Shown in pieces: positions 9,559 to 18,633 of a stretch of DNA of 35,004 nucleotides (position 1 is its first letter; every line of letters begins with the position of its first letter). A program made the position numbers and the translations under genes. A model generated the notes under the pieces. It saw only the letters and a list, made by a program, of their open reading frames with translations. It was not told where the DNA came from and did no database searches. This stretch comes from Bacteroidota bacterium (GTDB lineage: Bacteria; Bacteroidota; Ignavibacteria; Kapaibacteriales; UBA961): NCBI GenBank assembly GCA_018266765.1, contig JAFDZU010000040.1, positions 3,377-38,380 of the forward strand. The letters are read 5' to 3'.

Positions 9559-10404
9559 TTACGTTGTGAAATGTATTGCCGCCCATTCATTTTCGATTTC
9601 TGTATGAATATGAATAAAGTGCTCGGATTCAGCGGCTGTAATAATTTCCTCCACATCATATTTCAATACACCCGAAACTAATAAAACTCCGTTTGGTCTT
9701 TTGAGTGCAGAATAAAACTTAGGAAAATTTGGAATTAACAAATTTCTATATAAGTTCGCACATATTCCATCTGAAAACGGCAATTCGACTGTGAAAACAT
9801 CTTGCTGTGAGCATTCAACTTGATTTTCTACTTGATTAATGAGAATATTTTCTTTAGAATTTTCAACTGACCATTCATCATTATCAAAAGCAAAACAGTG
9901 TTCAGCACCGAGTTTCACTGCTAATATAGCAAGAACACCTGTTCCGGTTCCCGCATCAATCCATCGAGATCCGAAATCCACAGTTTTTTCAAGCAATGTA
10001 CAGACCATGCGTGTAGTAGGGTGATAACCCGTCCCAAATGACATTTTAGGGTTAATTAGAACAACTATTTCTTGCGGAACCTCTGAACTTTTCCAAGTAG
10101 GTGAAATTGCTACTCTTTCACTGACAATAACAGGTTCGAGAGATTCTTCCCATTCAGCATTCCAATTCTTATCGTCAATGATTTCTACTGAAAGTACAGA
10201 TGCTTCAACACCTATATTTTTGAGTTCATTAATAATGACATCGTTTAATTCCGTTGAATAATCTTGAACATTGAATGTAACAACTATTTCATCAATCCGC
10301 TCTTCAATCCCAACAAAAGGGAAGAGGTTAAATACTGAATAAGAAAGGTCGAATTGTTCTTCAAGAATTAAAAGATGTAGATTGACAAATTGTTTTTTAA
10401 GCAT
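9559..10404 (-). CDS. prmA: Ribosomal protein L11 methyltransferase
   Basis: This 281-residue SAM-dependent methyltransferase trimethylates ribosomal protein L11 in the family. The N-terminal substrate-binding ferredoxin-like domain (about 1-75) is followed by the family linker NWNAEWEESLEPV (80-92). Then come MSFGTGYHPTT (121-131) and SAM motif I DAGTGTGVLAI (150-160). A late ICANLYRNLL stands where many PrmA proteins have an N-I-L motif. The family match over the whole length is good. It lies between the M28 lipoprotein and Ppx genes, 12 bases from the latter. The ATG at 10404 is the only sensible start. Confidence 0.88.
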   Translation of the reverse strand: MLKKQFVNLHLLILEEQFDLSYSVFNLFPFVGIEERIDEIVVTFNVQDYSTELNDVIINELKNIGVEASVLSVEIIDDKNWNAEWEESLEPVIVSERVAISPTWKSSEVPQEIVVLINPKMSFGTGYHPTTRMVCTLLEKTVDFGSRWIDAGTGTGVLAILAVKLGAEHCFAFDNDEWSVENSKENILINQVENQVECSQQDVFTVELPFSDGICANLYRNLLIPNFPKFYSALKRPNGVLLVSGVLKYDVEEIITAAESEHFIHIHTEIENEWAAIHFTT

Positions 10405-10452
10405 GTGATTTTATTTTAGCAAAAGTTATTTTGAACATGTAGAAAATTTATC

Positions 10453-11469
10453 TTAGTAAGTTAAAACATACTCCAATAGACATTGACCTATGCATCCAAG
10501 GGTTTCTGCAGAGATGTTTTCGATAGTATCGTGTGTGGTGTGCCAATATTTTCTACGAGGATTCGTAACATTTTGCCCAACGAGATTAACGTCAATTATA
10601 TCTATAGAGGGAATCCCGGCTTGAATCAACATATCATGATCATCACTAACACCATTTCCATTTTCATATATAAAATATTTACAATTTCTTCGAGAAGCAA
10701 TATCCCAAATTTTCCTCATAGCTTCCGGGTTTGATTGCATAGAACTTGGTTCATAGCGAAATTCAGCATCTTTATCGCCTACTAAGTCCAAGAGAACAGC
10801 ACTTCTCGGTTTTGTAAAAGGAATGTTGCCGGCAAAGTGTCGAGCACCGATAAAGTAATTTGACAAATCATGTTCATAACCATAATCTTCACCATCGAAA
10901 AATACTACATCAACTCCAATAGAAGGGTGTGTATCTTTTAAAACACGAGCTATCTCTAAAAGTACTGCAACACCACTTGCCCCATCATTAGCAGCAGGGC
11001 AGGGCTTTGAAGTGTCATTTGGGCTAGGGTCTTGTTCAGAACGAGGACGACTATCCCAGTGACCACATATAAGAATACGGTTAGTTGATTTAGGGTTAAA
11101 AGAACCAATTATGTTTGAGAAAACAATAGACTTACCATAAATTACCGATTTGAATGATTGTAAAAAAGTAGTGTCAGCATAGTTACGAAGAGTTGATAAT
11201 AAAAAGTCGCGGCAAGAAGTATGTGCTGATGAACCCGGAACACGAGCTCCAAAACTTAATTGTTTCTCAACCAATTTATATGCTGCTTGTGCGTCGAATA
11301 TAGGGATAGTGTCTTTTACATTAATAGTTGTTTGAGTTGATTTCGGCATTTGAATTGTTTTTTCGATAAGTGGTTGTTTTTCAACAGTACAACCTACTAG
11401 AAAAAAAACTGTGACAATGATACTTAAAATACACAACCTAAAGTTTGGAATTGTTTTTGTGGAGTACAT
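10453..11469 (-). CDS. M28 family zinc peptidase lipoprotein, glutaminyl-cyclase-like
   Basis: This 338-residue lipoprotein has a hydrophobic signal and lipobox FLVGC (C27). The M28 domain has the features of bacterial glutaminyl-peptide cyclotransferases: FGARVPGS (73-80), GHWDSRP (136-142), AANDGASG with the zinc-ligand Asp162, FFDGEDYG with Glu194 and Asp195, and YWHTTHDTIE near the C-terminus with the last histidine ligand. Glutaminyl cyclases convert N-terminal glutamine to pyroglutamate, which is frequent on exported proteins of Bacteroidota. An aminopeptidase activity remains possible. It is the first gene of the minus-strand run and is divergent from kdsC, with 58 bases between the two start codons. 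Confidence 0.83.
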   Translation of the reverse strand: MYSTKTIPNFRLCILSIIVTVFFLVGCTVEKQPLIEKTIQMPKSTQTTINVKDTIPIFDAQAAYKLVEKQLSFGARVPGSSAHTSCRDFLLSTLRNYADTTFLQSFKSVIYGKSIVFSNIIGSFNPKSTNRILICGHWDSRPRSEQDPSPNDTSKPCPAANDGASGVAVLLEIARVLKDTHPSIGVDVVFFDGEDYGYEHDLSNYFIGARHFAGNIPFTKPRSAVLLDLVGDKDAEFRYEPSSMQSNPEAMRKIWDIASRRNCKYFIYENGNGVSDDHDMLIQAGIPSIDIIDVNLVGQNVTNPRRKYWHTTHDTIENISAETLGCIGQCLLEYVLTY

Positions 11470-11527
11470 GGAAGGATTTAATAAAAGTGTAAAACGCGAA
11501 ACTTAATTGCAAATTAGGGGAAATTTT

Positions 11528-12055
11528 ATGGAGCAACAAATTTTACTCAAAAAATTAGAGAAAATAGAGCTTTTAGTGATGGATGTGGATGGTACTTTAA
11601 CTGACAGTGCAATGTATTTTTCACGGAATGGAGAAGAATTAAAACGATTTTCAACTCGTGACGGAATGGGTATAAATTTGCTCCATTTAGCAGGAATTCA
11701 AACTGCAATTTTAACGAGTGAACTTTCTGAAATTGTTTCTGCTCGTGCTAAAAAATTAGCAATAAAGCATGTTGTATTGGGAAGCAAAAACAAAAAATAC
11801 GCACTTACAGAATTAGCTTTAAAATTGGGATTGACTTTTCAGAAAATAGCGTATATTGGTGATGATGTCAATGATATACCACCATTTAAACTTGCGGGAG
11901 TAACAGCTTGTCCATCAGATTCTGTTTCGCAAATAAAAGAACTAGCAGATTATATATGTGTAGCAAGCGGAGGAAACGGAGCGGTGCGTGAATTTGCAGA
12001 TATGATACTTACAGCACAGCAAAAGCCACTGACCGTACCGGAAGATAATTGGTGA
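11528..12055 (+). CDS. kdsC: KdsC-like HAD phosphatase (3-deoxy-D-manno-octulosonate 8-phosphate phosphatase type)
   Basis: This 175-residue HAD-superfamily phosphatase has the short, cap-less KdsC form. The nucleophile motif MDVDGTLTD is at 18-26 (Asp19, Asp21), motif II is ILTSE (61-65), the motif III lysine lies in SKNKKYALTE, and motif IV is GDDVND (111-116). KdsC dephosphorylates KDO-8-phosphate for lipopolysaccharide inner-core synthesis. Related proteins act on other sugar acid phosphates (for example, the CMP-sialate or KDN pathway), and the rest of the KDO pathway is not in view. The open frame begins at a TTG at 11507, but the ATG at 11528 has AGGGG shortly upstream and begins at the normal family start. 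Confidence 0.82.
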   Translation: MEQQILLKKLEKIELLVMDVDGTLTDSAMYFSRNGEELKRFSTRDGMGINLLHLAGIQTAILTSELSEIVSARAKKLAIKHVVLGSKNKKYALTELALKLGLTFQKIAYIGDDVNDIPPFKLAGVTACPSDSVSQIKELADYICVASGGNGAVREFADMILTAQQKPLTVPEDNW

Positions 12056-12118
12056 TTTAGTTATATTAGTTTTGATTATATTAAGTTTATTTATTAAATA
12101 TTTAGAAGGAATCGAATT

Positions 12119-12556
12119 ATGGGAAACAACAGTGAACATTCATACACAAAGGGCTTTTTATTAGGAGCACTTGTCGGCGGTGCAGTAGGGGCAATTACTG
12201 CATTATTGGTTGCACCAAAGTCCGGTGAAGAATTACGAGAAGATATTGCACGCCGTTCCGGTGAAATTTACGGCAAAGCCACAGATTATATTTCAAATGC
12301 TCGAGATGAAGCAGAAAATGTGGTAAATCAAGGTAAAACACAGGCGGAACGAATCGTCATGAATGCTCGTACTCAAGCTGAGAATTTGATGCATAATGCC
12401 GAGCAAATGATTCAAGAAGCAAAATTTCGTGCTTCTAATGCTAAAGAACATGTTGGTGAAAACATGACAAGAGTTCGCGATGCGGCAAAAGCAGGGGCTG
12501 AAGCATTTCGTACTGAACTTAAAGGTCCTAAAGATGTAGATACAGAATTAGGATAA
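12119..12556 (+). CDS. YtxH domain-containing protein
   Basis: This 145-residue protein has one N-terminal glycine-rich transmembrane segment (about 10-30; GFLLGALVGGAVGAITALLV), then APKSGEELRED, the YtxH signature. The rest is a long alanine- and glutamate-rich amphipathic helix that resembles LEA/apolipoprotein-like repeats. The family is linked to general stress in Bacillus, and its biochemical role is unknown. AGAAGGAAT precedes the ATG as a good ribosome binding site. It follows kdsC by 63 bases and precedes a DUF948-like gene, an arrangement also common for YtxH and DUF948 genes elsewhere. Confidence 0.85.
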   Translation: MGNNSEHSYTKGFLLGALVGGAVGAITALLVAPKSGEELREDIARRSGEIYGKATDYISNARDEAENVVNQGKTQAERIVMNARTQAENLMHNAEQMIQEAKFRASNAKEHVGENMTRVRDAAKAGAEAFRTELKGPKDVDTELG

Positions 12557-12604
12557 TGATTGTGATTATACTTAATAGAACTTATAATTAACCTATACTA
12601 AATT

Positions 12605-13021
12605 ATGCAAATACTACTTTCTTTTGCAGGATTAATTGCTTTGCTTTCTTTTGCGACAATGTGTATTTATGTCGTGATTGCGCTCAAAGATTCAAGAATT
12701 TTCTTAAAAAACGCAACAGATTCTCTGCAACAAACAGTTAAAATAGTTCAACAAATGGAAGTAAAATTAGCAGTTACTTTAGAAACTGCTAACGATACTT
12801 TAGAAAATACAAGCATAACTTTCAATAATATTGATAAACAAATTGAATTGTTTGATAAGGGGTTGAATCATTTTAATGCTGTAGCTAAGCGTGTTGATGA
12901 ACTTGAGATGAGTATTCAAAAAAAGATAGAAGGGCCTCTAATGCAAGCCGCTTCTATTGTATCTGGTGTTTCAAAAGCCGTTTCTGCATTCGGTTCTTCA
13001 TGGTCAAAAGGCAAACGATAA
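12605..13021 (+). CDS. DUF948-like single-pass membrane protein with coiled coil
   Basis: This 138-residue protein has an N-terminal membrane helix (about 3-27). A long helical region follows, with heptad-like repeats of asparagine, threonine and leucine (about 35-105), then a short small-residue tail (SIVSGVSKAVSAFGSSW). This organisation and its position just after a YtxH gene match DUF948-type proteins, a family of unknown function often found beside YtxH in Firmicutes and Bacteroidota. Its stop codon abuts the next ATG with no intervening base, which suggests translational coupling with the lipoprotein at 13022. Confidence 0.65.
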   Translation: MQILLSFAGLIALLSFATMCIYVVIALKDSRIFLKNATDSLQQTVKIVQQMEVKLAVTLETANDTLENTSITFNNIDKQIELFDKGLNHFNAVAKRVDELEMSIQKKIEGPLMQAASIVSGVSKAVSAFGSSWSKGKR

Positions 13022-13762
13022 ATGCAACATAAACCATTATATCTTATTTATTTGGGAATGGTATTTTTGGGAATGGTATTTCTATTCTCAGTTTTAATTA
13101 GTAGTTGTGGTCATCTTAACAATCTTGATAAGGTTAACATTAGAAATTCAATCGTTTTTACCGATTTTCAAGCTGTCGGAGATGCCGCACATGGAGTAGT
13201 TTGTTTAGGAATTGTCTCGGGCAAACCTATTATAAAAGATAGTTCCGGAATTGTCGGACAAATTGTAAACTCGGTTGGAGCAATAGGAAGTGCAATTGCA
13301 TCCTCGTCAATTGAAAATAAAATTGCACGCTCTGTACGACCTGATTCACTTGCTTGGGCTACTGCTCGCGGATTTGAAAGAAGTATGGAACGCTATGCTT
13401 CTATTAAAGTTGTTGATAATTTATCGAGTAATCCACAATTCATTGCTGAAACGTTGTTAGAACGTTATGAATTATCATCTACACAAGTTGGAGTTTATGC
13501 AAATGTTTGTGTTACATCCAGAATAATTGAGCGTGGAACAGGGAAAAAGATTTGGCAAAACAGAGAAACTAAAACTATTTCGTTGAGTAATTTATCACCA
13601 GCCGGACTTTTTACTCCAATTGGTCGAAGTGTTACCGGAATTGTAAATATGGTGCAAATACTTTCTATGAGTGATGAAGAAGTAAAAAGTGTTCTATTAA
13701 CTGCAGCGGCTGATGCCGGAAGAAAAATGGGCGAAACATTACGTGAAGATATTTCTGAATAA
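13022..13762 (+). CDS. Lipoprotein of unknown function
   Basis: I do not recognise this 246-residue protein. It begins with a hydrophobic signal peptide and lipobox LISSC (C29), so it should be a lipoprotein. A hydrophobic glycine/alanine/serine-rich stretch (about 70-95) is followed by a mixed alpha/beta region (R-G-F-E-R-S-M-E, then S-I-K-V-V-D, then V-C-V-T-S-R-I-I-E-R-G-T-G-K-K-I-W). That region is vaguely reminiscent of the CsgG/LpoB-like fold, which also carries an 'R-x-x-x-T-G-x-x-x-W' pattern, but this is only a hint. The signal peptide contains a perfect in-frame 15-bp duplication (LGMVF twice). It is the last gene of the kdsC operon and is coupled to the preceding gene. Confidence 0.7.
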   Translation: MQHKPLYLIYLGMVFLGMVFLFSVLISSCGHLNNLDKVNIRNSIVFTDFQAVGDAAHGVVCLGIVSGKPIIKDSSGIVGQIVNSVGAIGSAIASSSIENKIARSVRPDSLAWATARGFERSMERYASIKVVDNLSSNPQFIAETLLERYELSSTQVGVYANVCVTSRIIERGTGKKIWQNRETKTISLSNLSPAGLFTPIGRSVTGIVNMVQILSMSDEEVKSVLLTAAADAGRKMGETLREDISE

Positions 13763-13784
13763 GCATTATATCACATAAAAAATT

Positions 13785-13824
13785 AAAACCCCTTACTTTA
13801 AATAAAAAAGCAAGGGGTTTTATA
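13785..13824 (+). terminator. Terminator between convergent genes, possibly bidirectional
   Basis: A 15-bp stem with one G-T pair (13785-13799 with 13807-13821; AAAACCCCTTACTTT type) has a 7-base A-rich loop. The plus strand continues into TTTTATAT and the minus strand reads TTTT within the stem. It lies between two convergent stops (13762 and 13839), so it may end both transcripts. Confidence 0.8.
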
Positions 13825-13838
13825 TAATGACAATACAA

Positions 13839-14387
13839 TTATTTACGAATTAACGCAGGGATTTTCTGTTCTGCAATTGCAAAAGCTCCAAAAAATACAG
13901 CACTAAAAAAAACGTCACCCATAAATGTATTAAGTAACATACTACTGAATGGAGTATAATCGTAGAATGGAACTGCTGCAGCATAACATGCGATAAGTCC
14001 ACTGATTGAATATGGGTACGAAGAACTCAATGCCCAAACTGCAAAATTAGTTATCACGAAAAAAAGTGTAGAACCTGCTACCGAAGCCAAAGCTATTCTT
14101 CCAGCAGATTTGTTTTCTTTTAATCGAAATCCGATTAAAGTTATTAAAGCAAAACATCCATAAACAAACGGCATCGTAGTATGAAATCCAATTATTAAAT
14201 CGCTTAATAGCATAGCTAAGATTGGAATTAAGAAAGCAAGCCGTTTGTCTGAAAAATAAGCACCTCCAAAAAGTGCAATTGCCGTTATCGGTGCAAAGTT
14301 CGGTGGATGAGGCAATAAACGTGAAAGTGCAGCTAAAAGAATCATTCCGCTTATAGTTGCAAACCGAGGATTGAACAATGATTTCAT
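13839..14387 (-). CDS. DUF6580 family membrane protein (possible ECF-type substrate-binding component)
   Basis: This protein has 182 residues and about five transmembrane helices. It has the DUF6580 hallmark opening: ALSRLLPHPPNFAPITAIALFGGAYF near the N-terminus. Further conserved elements are a FLIPILAMLLSDLIIG helix, TNFAVWA and FSSMLLNTFMGDVFF. The family is predicted to be a putative transporter, similar in size and topology to S components of ECF vitamin transporters, but its substrate is unproven. The open frame extends to 14438, but the ATG at 14387 (MKSLFNPRFAT) fits the family start and avoids overlap with the divergent gene. Its neighbours, a YncE/BtuG-like lipoprotein and a partner surface protein, suggest a role in uptake of a small molecule such as a corrinoid. 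Confidence 0.75.
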   Translation of the reverse strand: MKSLFNPRFATISGMILLAALSRLLPHPPNFAPITAIALFGGAYFSDKRLAFLIPILAMLLSDLIIGFHTTMPFVYGCFALITLIGFRLKENKSAGRIALASVAGSTLFFVITNFAVWALSSSYPYSISGLIACYAAAVPFYDYTPFSSMLLNTFMGDVFFSAVFFGAFAIAEQKIPALIRK

Positions 14388-14406
14388 CGAATGTCCCAAA
14401 GAGAAT

Positions 14407-15318
14407 ATGAGTAATATAAGAATGTTTAGATGGAACAAAAATACGCTATTTTTACATAAAATTTGCTTCTTTTTATGGTTGCTTGTCTTTCCGTCCGCGC
14501 TTAATGCTCAGCAAATCAATGGAAAAGGAGCAGATTTCGTACTTTCATTTAAGCCGGGAACCGAACAGAATTCTGGACAATCTTCGGAATATTTCCCGAA
14601 AAATGTCTTCGGTTTGCCTGATACATCTGCTCGATATGAGATTCCTTCTGTGAATCCTGAACAAATTTGCTCTATTGGCTTAGGAGGTGAAATAATTCTT
14701 GGGTTTCAGGGTAAATTTATTCGTGATTTACCTGGGAAAGACTTCACAATTTTTGAAAATGCCTTTTATTCACCAGATTTCCATAAGACTTTTGTTGAAC
14801 CTGCTAAAATTGCTGTCAGTAAAGATGGGATAACATTTGTAGAATTCCCTTATAATTCAGAAACATTAAAGGGATGTGCAGGAATAACACCAACAAATGG
14901 AAATAAAAATCCTTTCAATCCATTCGAAAGTGGTGGAGATAGCTTCGACCTCGCTGATATTGGAGTAGATTCAGTACGTTTCATTAGAATTACAGATATT
15001 TCGGGACTTCTGTTGAATAGAAAACACCCTATGTATGACCCTATTGTAACCGGTTTTGACTTAGACGCAGTAGTAGGATTACACCTAGAAGATGATAATG
15101 CTATATCAATTCTTATTGGAGAAAGTAATATAACTATCAATTCAGAATCAGAATATAATTATTCAGTCTATTCGCTAACTGGTAGTAAAGTAATCTATTC
15201 TCAAAATCAAACTAAAACGACTAAACTTCCATTTGAAAATATTCCCAAAGGAATTTTTGTATTAGTTGTAACAATCACTGATTCAAAAGATAGCAAGTCA
15301 ATAACCTTCATTAAATAA
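14407..15318 (+). CDS. Secreted cell-surface protein with degenerate T9SS-like tail, partner of YncE/BtuG-like protein
   Basis: This 303-residue exported protein carries a signal peptide ending FPSALNAQ. The core has features of a 'cell surface protein' family found next to YncE-like lipoproteins and TonB receptors in Bacteroidota: FPKNVFGLPD, LGGEIILGF, DFTIFENAFY, VSKDGITFVEFPYN and GGDSFDLADIGVDSVRFIRITD, ending in a GFDLDAVVG strand. The last 75 residues resemble a T9SS sorting domain (Y-S-V-Y-S-L-T-G-S-K-V, then L-P-F-E-N-I-P-K-G-I-F-V-L) but lack the normal PNP start. The open frame reaches up to 14371, overlapping the divergent gene. The ATG at 14407 is preferred, and 14422 is also possible. 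The next gene follows after 7 bases. Confidence 0.7.
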   Translation: MSNIRMFRWNKNTLFLHKICFFLWLLVFPSALNAQQINGKGADFVLSFKPGTEQNSGQSSEYFPKNVFGLPDTSARYEIPSVNPEQICSIGLGGEIILGFQGKFIRDLPGKDFTIFENAFYSPDFHKTFVEPAKIAVSKDGITFVEFPYNSETLKGCAGITPTNGNKNPFNPFESGGDSFDLADIGVDSVRFIRITDISGLLLNRKHPMYDPIVTGFDLDAVVGLHLEDDNAISILIGESNITINSESEYNYSVYSLTGSKVIYSQNQTKTTKLPFENIPKGIFVLVVTITDSKDSKSITFIK

Positions 15319-15325
15319 TTTGAAA

Positions 15326-16432
15326 ATGCTTCGTAATTTACTACAAATTCTACTTCTACTTTTATTGACAAGTTGTATTTCAACTCCGAATCAACCGACT
15401 GTAAATTCAGATTTAATACCATCTGGTAAAGGGGCTTATATCCTCTGTGAAGGTTTACAAGGGCAAAATAATTCGTCTTTGTACCGATACAGTTTTGAAA
15501 AAAAGACATCACTAACTTCTACTGATTATTTCACTGCTGTCAATCCTACACTACATTTAGGAGATATAGCAAATTACATTGCTAAAAAAGGAGATACTGC
15601 TTTTGTTGCAGTGACCACAGGTGGAAACATAGAAATATTCAGGATATCTACTGGAAAATGGATTTATCGAATAACTCTTCAAGGAAATAATCGTGCTCCT
15701 CGCGAAATAGTTATTGTGAATGATTCAATAGGATATTTAACTGATTTTCATACGAATTCACTTACGAGGTTTAATCCTACTACTTTTGTAATAACAAAAG
15801 ACAACATTTCAGTCGGCTATGCACCCGAAGGTGTTGTTACAATCAATAACTATGTCTTAACAGCCAATTCCGGTTTTGGAGATTATGCATACGAACATCC
15901 CGAAATCAAAGCACATAATATCTCAGTTGTTGATGTATCCACTAATACAGAAATAGCTGTTATTCCGGCCGGAATAAATGTTCAATCGTTACGAGTACAT
16001 CCTACTTTACCTAAATTTTATGCTCTGTATACCCATTTGCCACGATTTGATAGTGACTCACTTGGTGGAATCATAGAATATGATGCAAACACTTTAAGCG
16101 AAATTAAGCGTTGGAATCTTAAAGTTTCTAAAAATTTTGGACTCTCATTTTCAGGTGACTCTTTACTTTTTCTCAATAATGACGGGCTTTATGTATTAAA
16201 TACTCAAGATAATCAACTACCTAAACTTGTTGCTAAATCTGAAGTAAATGAACATTGGTATAATGTTACTGTTTGCCCTTTTGATGGAAACGTTTGGGTG
16301 TGTAATGCAAAGGGCTACACAACTAAAGGTGAAGTATTGATATTAAATCCGAAAAATAATTGGCAACCTGAACAAAAATTTAATGTAGGAGTAAATCCTA
16401 ATGGAATAATTTTTTTTGACGGTTTACCTTAA
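15326..16432 (+). CDS. YncE/BtuG-like beta-propeller lipoprotein
   Basis: This 368-residue lipoprotein has a leucine-rich signal and lipobox LLTSC (about residue 17). The mature part is a YVTN/YncE-type propeller with repeated G-K/S-x-x-x-Y-R-x-T-L, TTGGNIEIFRI, N-S-L-T-R-F-N and SVVDVSTNTEIAVIPAG blades, ending V-G-V-N-P-N-G-I. Size, lipidation and the DUF5074-like pattern match BtuG, the surface corrinoid-capture lipoprotein of Bacteroides. No TonB receptor (BtuB) is present in this window, so the ligand is an inference. The frame could begin at a TTG at 15320, but the ATG at 15326 follows the previous stop by 7 bases and suits the signal peptide. It converges with the VWA gene, with 14 bases between them. 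Confidence 0.7.
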   Translation: MLRNLLQILLLLLLTSCISTPNQPTVNSDLIPSGKGAYILCEGLQGQNNSSLYRYSFEKKTSLTSTDYFTAVNPTLHLGDIANYIAKKGDTAFVAVTTGGNIEIFRISTGKWIYRITLQGNNRAPREIVIVNDSIGYLTDFHTNSLTRFNPTTFVITKDNISVGYAPEGVVTINNYVLTANSGFGDYAYEHPEIKAHNISVVDVSTNTEIAVIPAGINVQSLRVHPTLPKFYALYTHLPRFDSDSLGGIIEYDANTLSEIKRWNLKVSKNFGLSFSGDSLLFLNNDGLYVLNTQDNQLPKLVAKSEVNEHWYNVTVCPFDGNVWVCNAKGYTTKGEVLILNPKNNWQPEQKFNVGVNPNGIIFFDGLP

Positions 16433-16446
16433 ACCCATAACTTTTC

Positions 16447-18633
16447 TTAAACCATTCCAGAGCGTTTTCTTATAAACCATTCAGAACCAAAACAAAGTAA
16501 TCCAGTCGCAAGTAACCATGGAAGATTCCATAAAGCAAATTCAGATTTTTGCGTAATAGTTCTTGGAGAGAAAGTTGGTTGCTTTTTTATGTCTTCTAAA
16601 AACTTTGATGCATTTTCGGGAGTATAAAACTTGCCACCTGTTCGTTCTGCTATTTGACGAAGAAGTTCGGAATTCATCCTAACATTTTGATATTCAAGTG
16701 CTATATCACCTACGCTGAATCTTCCGTTATCGGTTCCATACGATTTTTGAGCTACTGAAACAGAACCGGAAAACGAATAATCACCTTCAGTAAGTCCTTC
16801 TAATTGACCACTATATCGTCCATTAGTTAAAGGAGTAAGTATTAATTCGCGAGGATTATTTCCACCTGAAATTTTAACAACAACTTCTGCATTTTCGATA
16901 GGAGTGAGTGTTTGGTCGTAGACTTGAGCATTGAATTCTACTTTTTCTCCACTTGCGTACAGTTTTTTAGTTGTTTTAATTCTTACAGTTTTTTGGTTAT
17001 CCGAAGTAGTAAGCCATCGAGTTGAATTTTGTAGAAATGTAGAAAGAACGTCAGGAACATCCGTTCTACCTTTTGAAATTTCAGCGGCTTCTCCCAGCAA
17101 TTTCCAACGATACAAACCATAACCTAACACTGCAACTGACTTCTTACCTTGAAATTCCCTTGATGTAATTAAAGGTTCATTTAACGGTGTTGAATTGACT
17201 TTAATGGTTGCTAATACTTCCGATTCCGGTTTGACTCGAACAAATGTTTCGGTACGAAATATAGGAGGTAATTGATTCCAAATTGCTATATCTTCATTAG
17301 TTCCTTTTATTTTTAGGAGTGAATTCGATAATGATTTTGACTGTATATCAGCGAAAACCATGAATTCCTGTGCTCGTGATGACACAACAGTAAATGGCAA
17401 GTATTGCTCTAATTGTTTCAATTTTGTGTAATCTGTTTGAAGTGAAGAAACAAAAAGAATTGGTTTACCTCGTTCGCATTCTTGGGCTATTAGTTGTAGT
17501 GAAGTATTACCAGTTGAATTTATAGGAAATCCTACTAATACTATAAGTTCTGCATCATGAAGGACTTGTGAAGTCGGTTCTTCGTCATAAAATTCGGCAT
17601 TTTGTTTCTGAATATATGCTTTTACTTCTGCACCTTTTTCATTTGTCAATATAGACCGCAGGAAAGAAACGTCCGAACTCGGAGCACCTGCAAACAAAAC
17701 AACTCTTCTTTTTTGTTTAAGAACTGTAATAAATTCAGAAAGTGAATTGTTTTTTGTTGTTAATTCACCTACTCGAGGAGAAATTGATGCGGTTAATTTA
17801 TGAACCCCTTCAGTTTTAGGATGATAATCAAATACTGCAGAATATGCCTGTTGGTCAGCCCGCAATATTATTGTTTGTTCTGCGATTGGAGTTCCATTAT
17901 CTGAAAGAACGAGTTTAGTAGTTGAATTATATTCATCGGTATAACCATTTGATTTTAAATTAATATTCACCGGAACTGAAGATTCAAGATATGTTAATTC
18001 GTTAGTTAGAATGGTTTGAATTGATATGTCTTTTGGTTCAGTCGAATCTCCGATACCAATAATATATAATGGTTTGCCGAGTAATTCAGCTTCGTATAAA
18101 GGATTTGCTCCAGCATTAAATGCACCGTCTGTTATCACAAGTCCTGCTCGAAGATTAGTACTTTCAGTTTGTTCTGAAACCCATCGAATTGCACCTGAGA
18201 TATCAGTTAATTGCCCGTCAAATTTTAGTGAATCTATTCTTTTGGTATCAATTGCTCTCACTGCATCATGGAAGGATGCAACCTTTACTTCATCTCCTAA
18301 TGATAGAATTTTAGAATCAATTAAAGATTTTGTAATTGCAACTTTTCGACTTCCTTTACTATCGGTAATAGTCATTGATTGAGAATTATCTAGTAATAAA
18401 GCAAGCTTAGGTGTATCTATACTTGTACGTACAAAAGAAAGAATCGGTTCAAATAATGCAAAAATTAACAAACCTAATGCAATAGTTCGTAAAGTGATTA
18501 GGATAGATTTTTTAACAGAAGAAATTGGGGGGATTGTGGTTCGGTAGCAGTAAAAAGCATATATGAATGCACAAAGAATAATTCCAAAAACTACCAACCA
18601 AGAGCCACTTATACCGAGTGAGTATGAATTCAT
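16447..18633 (-). CDS. Membrane-anchored VWA domain protein with GATase-like central domain
   Basis: This 728-residue inner-membrane protein has two N-terminal helices (about 11-30 and 44-61) and one C-terminal helix (about 703-720) followed by a basic tail (FIRKRSGMV). A von Willebrand A domain begins at about 75 with the MIDAS motif LDNSQSM (Asp82, Ser84, Ser86) and later VITDGAFNAG. A class-I glutamine-amidotransferase-like fold lies at about 310-420 (RVVLFAGAPSSD) without an obvious catalytic triad. An immunoglobulin-like region (about 560-640) precedes the last helix. This is a familiar Bacteroidota layout of unknown function, often linked to Bat/MoxR-type loci, but no MoxR ATPase is seen here. 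The open frame begins at TTG 18636; the ATG at 18633 is used. Confidence 0.75.
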   Translation of the reverse strand: MNSYSLGISGSWLVVFGIILCAFIYAFYCYRTTIPPISSVKKSILITLRTIALGLLIFALFEPILSFVRTSIDTPKLALLLDNSQSMTITDSKGSRKVAITKSLIDSKILSLGDEVKVASFHDAVRAIDTKRIDSLKFDGQLTDISGAIRWVSEQTESTNLRAGLVITDGAFNAGANPLYEAELLGKPLYIIGIGDSTEPKDISIQTILTNELTYLESSVPVNINLKSNGYTDEYNSTTKLVLSDNGTPIAEQTIILRADQQAYSAVFDYHPKTEGVHKLTASISPRVGELTTKNNSLSEFITVLKQKRRVVLFAGAPSSDVSFLRSILTNEKGAEVKAYIQKQNAEFYDEEPTSQVLHDAELIVLVGFPINSTGNTSLQLIAQECERGKPILFVSSLQTDYTKLKQLEQYLPFTVVSSRAQEFMVFADIQSKSLSNSLLKIKGTNEDIAIWNQLPPIFRTETFVRVKPESEVLATIKVNSTPLNEPLITSREFQGKKSVAVLGYGLYRWKLLGEAAEISKGRTDVPDVLSTFLQNSTRWLTTSDNQKTVRIKTTKKLYASGEKVEFNAQVYDQTLTPIENAEVVVKISGGNNPRELILTPLTNGRYSGQLEGLTEGDYSFSGSVSVAQKSYGTDNGRFSVGDIALEYQNVRMNSELLRQIAERTGGKFYTPENASKFLEDIKKQPTFSPRTITQKSEFALWNLPWLLATGLLCFGSEWFIRKRSGMV

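Follow-up and report, generated by a model that had tools for sequence, protein, structure and literature searches.

Three adjoining genes in the 35,004-nucleotide stretch of DNA analyzed here (the window) probably form a route for the capture and import of corrinoids (vitamin B12), in which the DUF6580 membrane protein P1 would be a solitary importer in the inner membrane and BtuB is encoded elsewhere in the genome. Our preferred reading takes DUF6580 for a widespread solitary importer of corrinoids that has gone unrecognised and does the work of BtuCDF. We infer that it both binds and transports corrinoids, and that in the window organism the three proteins cooperate. In the open-licence PMC literature, no paper on DUF6580/PF20221 and no published B12 role for it were found, and nothing recognised as DUF6580 appeared there under new or putative B12 transporters, BtuM, or B12 in these groups.

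The three genes were confirmed at the positions given in a preliminary description of this DNA, with P1 divergent from P2 and P3 (Table 1). The open reading frame of P1 covers 13839-14438 on the reverse strand and opens at a TTG codon at 14438, while translation probably starts from the ATG at 14387, which gives the same length of 182 aa as in a genome of the same genus (G107). P2 starts at the ATG at 14422 and has a signal peptide that was seen by eye. P3 starts at the ATG at 15326, 7 bases past the stop of P2, as previously described. Positions 9559-14387 of the window carry PrmA, M28 peptidase, KdsC-like, YtxH, and DUF948 genes, whose arrangement next to DUF6580-P2 is conserved across several families of the order.

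Table 1. Positions of the three genes and of the gap between P1 and P2 within the window.
Feature	Position	Strand	Length and remarks
P1, DUF6580 membrane protein	13839..14387	-	182 aa; candidate solitary corrinoid importer, predicted S-component fold
P2, BtuH-type domain protein with T9SS C-terminal tail	14422..15318	+	298 aa; candidate surface corrinoid binder
P3, BtuG-type YncE/DUF5074 beta-propeller lipoprotein	15326..16432	+	368 aa; candidate high-affinity surface corrinoid capture
P1/P2 intergenic gap	14388..14421	.	34 bases between likely starts; no riboswitch

The window genome is 3.7 Mb in size and 100% complete, and the parts of the proposed route are split among its contigs. DUF6580, P2, and P3 lie on contig C41, to which the window belongs, BtuB with its TonB domains on C84, and a cobalamin riboswitch with a T9SS-tail propeller-like protein on C24. 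The preliminary description had reported that no TonB receptor is present here; this holds for contig C41, where the BtuB query gave no match, but not for the genome as a whole. No cobalamin riboswitch reached the gathering score in the window (Rfam), and no cobalamin family was among the rows at E<=10 for positions 13400-16900. Three sub-threshold Rfam rows in the window belonged to eukaryotic or CRISPR families and were read as chance. The sole cobalamin riboswitch of the genome (G000:C24:4079-4279) lies upstream of the T9SS-tail propeller-like protein, which is 450 aa long (L003:2559-3911, reverse strand), is related to the first gene of the riboswitch-TonB-P2-P3 runs of relatives, and shares 24% identity with that of L043. 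Elsewhere in the window genome, a propeller gene is located upstream of a MeaB/IcmF-like B12-binding protein (L213:369-2865).

By its sequence, P3 is a BtuG homologue. The best PDB matches (phmmer) were to BtuG1 of Bacteroides thetaiotaomicron in 8blw_B, 8ptf, and 8ptd with 1.9e-27, 2.7e-27, and 2.8e-27, respectively, followed by other Bacteroides surface propellers. The BtuG1 match spans residues 23-365 of P3 and thus amounts to full-length propeller homology, which bears out the earlier assignment to the BtuG type; the title of 8blw reads “Vitamin B12 transporter BtuB1 with lipoprotein BtuG1”. In Pfam, only a weak match to DUF5074 was obtained. The lipobox LLLTSC was seen by eye.

The surface protein P2, which the preliminary description had left unnamed, is assigned by profile and predicted structure to the BtuH-type domains and is as such homologous to B12-binding proteins. 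The best match of its AlphaFold model (pLDDT 93.5, 32 sequences) was the H domain of BtuG1 (8blw_B 392-660; Z 13.1, 3.2 A, 157 residues, 24% identity), with PAPP-A as the next fold at Z 10.4. Searched against the PDB, the P2 profile found the BtuG1 H domain at 1.6e-5 and BtuH2 (7biz) at 0.0096; profile and model were both built from 32 of the 41 P2 loci. In Pfam and NCBIfam, P2 gave only a weak T9SS tail and a partial LIC_13355 match, the sorting domain scoring 25.7 bits with TIGR04183 and its tail fold Z 9.8. Foldseek rows for P2 were led by beta-glucuronidases with a TM of about 0.2 and were not used. The viral contigs searched for P2 contained no relative of it. The core of P2 is also matched below the cut-off, at 36 and 49 bits, by the Leptospira LIC_13355 lipoprotein family (NF033170; window 14422-15318 and L158:1712-2962), and from sequence this family may be BtuH-like too.

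BtuG1 is described as a fusion of a propeller with an H domain (PMC10404256), and P2 and P3 would therefore be the two halves of BtuG1 carried as separate genes, the propeller corresponding to P3 and the H domain to P2. The arrangement here differs from BtuG1 (8blw, 8ptd, 8ptf) in this separation, in the T9SS tail of P2, and in BtuB, which is not adjacent to P3 in the window genome. In relatives such as L036, L039-L041, and L043, a TonB receptor stands with P2 and P3 in the arrangement TonB receptor-P2-P3. The B12 contacts of BtuH2 given in PMC8941943 include Tyr510, Trp577, Trp511, and His476. While its domain is homologous to that of P2, P2 lacks the PKD domains of BtuH2 and carries a T9SS tail in place of a lipoprotein export signal.

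P1 matched DUF6580 (PF20221) in Pfam with 1e-57. The family is present once in the window genome, in 105 of the 123 order genomes, and in 153 of 395 sampled genomes of the phylum. Its AlphaFold model (pLDDT 89.4, 33 sequences) predicts the fold of an ECF S component, in agreement with the preliminary description, which had pointed to S components on account of size and helices. In VIA-align, rows 1-20 were occupied by S components only, and the first other fold was MreD at Z 8.6. The top matches were BtuM with hydroxy- and cyanocobalamin (8ovv and 8c7p, Z 13.8 and 13.6), aligned to the predicted model over 159 and 161 aa with an rmsd of 3.1 and 3.2, respectively. FolT (7nnt) followed with Z 13.2 and is tied with BtuM within 1. 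Foldseek E-values of S components were weak, at 0.45 and above, and DUF6580 profiles of 33 or 82 sequences (the larger drawn from the 105 sequences counted for residues) matched no PDB chain at E<=10, BtuM included. The common fold alone does not fix the ligand of DUF6580.

The pocket of BtuM is described as containing H28, D67, C80, Y85, and R153, with Cys80 in loop 3 invariant and essential (PMC6072759). In DUF6580, H27, D63, and Y76 were conserved in 99, 104, and 105 of 105 sequences, respectively, and are candidate counterparts of H28, D67, and Y85, matched by their order and rough position, while position 69 is His or Tyr in 88 of 105. No cysteine occurred in the loop-3 columns of the 33 aligned sequences, and since the cysteine of BtuM is absent, DUF6580 is not a member of BtuM. 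Both families share the S-component fold (predicted for DUF6580), a length of about 180 aa, genomes without EcfT, and a linkage to BtuB, and the candidate His, Asp, and Tyr counterparts lie at similar sequence positions (8ovv, 8c7p; PMC6072759). They differ in the loop-3 cysteine and in the phyla that carry them, with 12% identity in the structural alignment and no profile match between them.

A connection of DUF6580 to B12 emerged from its surroundings in other genomes. Eighty named DUF6580 loci, selected for their similarity without regard to riboswitches, were each scanned with Rfam, and a cobalamin riboswitch was located upstream on the same strand in 30 of them (29 RF00174 and one AdoCbl-II), where chance would give about 0.2-1.4 of 80 assuming 1-6 riboswitches per 3 Mb. 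One further cobalamin riboswitch lay downstream on the same strand and none on the opposite strand, while 50 of the 80 loci, some of them on short contigs, had no upstream riboswitch. By record title, and MAG titles may mislabel taxa, the 30 loci include Ignavibacteria, Bacteroidetes, Verrucomicrobia, Planctomycetes, Rokubacteria, and Levybacteria. The genes between riboswitch and DUF6580 (n=30) were BtuB in 17 cases, a P2-like gene in five, and another gene in two; in the other six the riboswitch leads straight into DUF6580, with no more than a short frame between them over less than 700 bases. P2-like genes in L158, L149, and L144 matched the P2 profile with 3.9e-33, 4.4e-8, and 2.5e-6, respectively, and the pairing of DUF6580 with P2 therefore reaches Rokubacteria and Verrucomicrobia. 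Thirteen further loci of the phylum (L222-L234) were not picked for a riboswitch, whereas L216-L217 and L218-L221 were picked for one already visible. Six of the 13 had a riboswitch upstream of DUF6580, either directly or with BtuB in between, two of them (L223 and L228) probably repeating L130 and L193 of the 80, and the remaining seven had none upstream, some being on short contigs. The link to cobalamin riboswitches raised in the preliminary description was thus found in relatives, but not at the locus in the window. Its tentative choice of a corrinoid ligand gains support from the homology of P2 and P3 and from the many genomes in which DUF6580 is linked with cobalamin riboswitches and BtuB.

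Within the order, DUF6580 and P2 were adjacent (<600 bp) in 18 of the 82 genomes that have both, spread over four families, which is more than chance. This count leaves out one pair 8.4 kb apart (G087), and the tally of 94 genomes with P2 takes in every genome that reached E<=0.001, even where the match is weak. The adjacent genes were divergent in 11 of the 18 cases (families f1, f2, f6, and f9), while all seven genomes of genus g4, from the family of the window organism, carry riboswitch, DUF6580, and P2 on one strand. In 87 of 105 order genomes bearing DUF6580, it does not lie beside P2. Riboswitches and P2 occurred within 8 kb of each other in 30 pairs, every P2 being downstream on the same strand, and several loci of the order present a run of riboswitch, T9SS-tail protein, TonB receptor, P2, and P3. 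The grouping of DUF6580, P2, and P3, whose conservation the preliminary description had suggested checking, is kept in only part of the order, and elsewhere the parts appear in other combinations. Gene order that was simply inherited, with a DUF6580 function unrelated to B12, would agree with the flanking PrmA to DUF948 genes, which accompany P1 and P2 across several families, and with the many DUF6580 genes of the phylum that sit among unrelated genes (L224-L226, L229-L231, and L233). We consider this very unlikely, as linkage to riboswitch and BtuB recurs in distant phyla in other gene orders, and in genus g4 DUF6580 is the first gene behind the riboswitch with P2 following it.

Many bacteria possess BtuB and lack BtuCDF. 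The passage of B12 across the inner membrane in most bacteria is presented as an open question in PMC6072759. A BtuCDF ABC importer would do the same inner-membrane job as DUF6580, but strong FecCD matches (BtuC-type permease, >200 bits) were found in 11 of 123 order genomes and were absent from 96 of the 105 with DUF6580, and the window genome (G000) had no FecCD match. Mutual exclusion of the two is weak, with strong FecCD in 9 of 105 genomes with DUF6580 and 2 of 18 without it.

S components usually need EcfT and ATPases, and ECF-CbrT is an ECF transporter specific for B12. While such transporters share the S-component fold with DUF6580, EcfT (PF02361) was found in 0 of 123 order genomes, the window genome included, and in 10 of 14 controls. 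An ECF-type DUF6580 working with a distant, unrecognised energising module is quite unlikely given these counts and given that no ABC genes were recognised among the DUF6580 neighbours examined, even though remote T components could escape PF02361. For transport across the inner membrane, we infer that DUF6580 is the best candidate left. Since no BtuC-type permease was detected in the window genome and no EcfT in the order, the earlier proposal of a unit unlike the standard Btu set is also supported.

The window genome encodes MetH, methylmalonyl-CoA mutase, and a MeaB/IcmF-like protein, and the organism should therefore need corrinoids. CbiC, a marker of corrin synthesis, was detected in 0 of 123 order genomes and in 7 of 14 controls, and the order therefore probably does not make the corrin ring. 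This count also bears on whether DUF6580 transports cobalt in the manner of the Cbt families, given that cobalamin riboswitches are described to precede some predicted cobalt transporters as well (PMC2667541). As CbiC is missing from all 123 genomes though DUF6580 is present in 105, cobalt transport was set aside for the order; the commonest operon partner of DUF6580 is moreover BtuB, and no metal-binding S component was among the structural matches listed, which is not an exclusion. We regard cobalt transport as highly improbable.

Outside the order, many loci place DUF6580 next to a Peripla_BP_2 (BtuF-like) gene and a DUF71/PF01902 gene, and once next to CobU (L219). DUF71/COG2102-like genes lie beside DUF6580 in the riboswitch-led runs of L142, L144, L149, L158, L174, L175, L177, L197, and L234, and both that were tested (L142 and L197) matched PF01902. 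Bacterial DUF71 genes have been tied to B12 salvage, 75 of 102 adjoining B12 transporter genes (PMC3541065). BtuF-like genes (PF01497) next to DUF6580, whose products show no signal peptide by eye and which have no recognised ABC permease nearby, were found in L142, L159, L164, L166, L174, L175, L177, L197, L198, and L219. Overall, 10 of 13 BtuF-like frames begin inside the domain itself, so that no signal peptide is seen by eye, while the other three starts are unclear; these proteins are perhaps a cytosolic corrinoid-binding trap. In L234 (2145-4752), riboswitch, DUF6580, a DUF71-like gene, and a BATS/radical-SAM (biotin-synthase-like) gene stand in a row. A c-di-GMP-I riboswitch was located near the DUF6580 locus of L174 (1927-2014).

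S components of the CblT type are reported to import corrinoid fragments or lower-ligand precursors. DUF6580 belongs by its predicted fold to the same class, and the salvage genes beside it (CobU in L219 and DUF71/PF01902 in several loci) would suit the import of alpha-ribazole, DMB, or cobinamide only, and not of whole cobalamin. Such a restriction appears unlikely in view of BtuB as the usual partner between riboswitch and DUF6580 (17/30), BtuM with bound cobalamin as the top structural match, and the finding of no other inner-membrane route for cobalamin in most of the order.

Under the preferred reading of import of whole corrinoids, the propeller lipoprotein P3 and the T9SS-exported, BtuH-type P2 would bind corrinoids at the cell surface and pass them to BtuB, encoded on contig C84, for transport across the outer membrane. 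DUF6580, resembling an S component but acting alone, would then take them through the inner membrane with neither an ABC permease nor an ECF module, and import would probably be pulled by intracellular corrinoid binding, adenosylation, or use.

The chances are about even that DUF6580 constitutes a large and so far unrecognised family whose members import B12 on their own in Bacteroidota, Ignavibacteria, Verrucomicrobia, Planctomycetes, and others, with the BtuM fold but not its cysteine, replacing BtuCDF and joined in some phyla by a cytosolic BtuF-like/DUF71 trap. Lacking that cysteine, such proteins would use another cobalt ligand, a His/Tyr of loop 3 or the conserved His of loop 1, or else bind cobalamin in its base-on form. 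If DUF6580 does fill this role, a single family would account for how much of several phyla takes up B12, and predictions of auxotrophy for uncultured groups would change. DUF6580 would also be the second S component, in this case one free of the cysteine, that may function with no ATPase.
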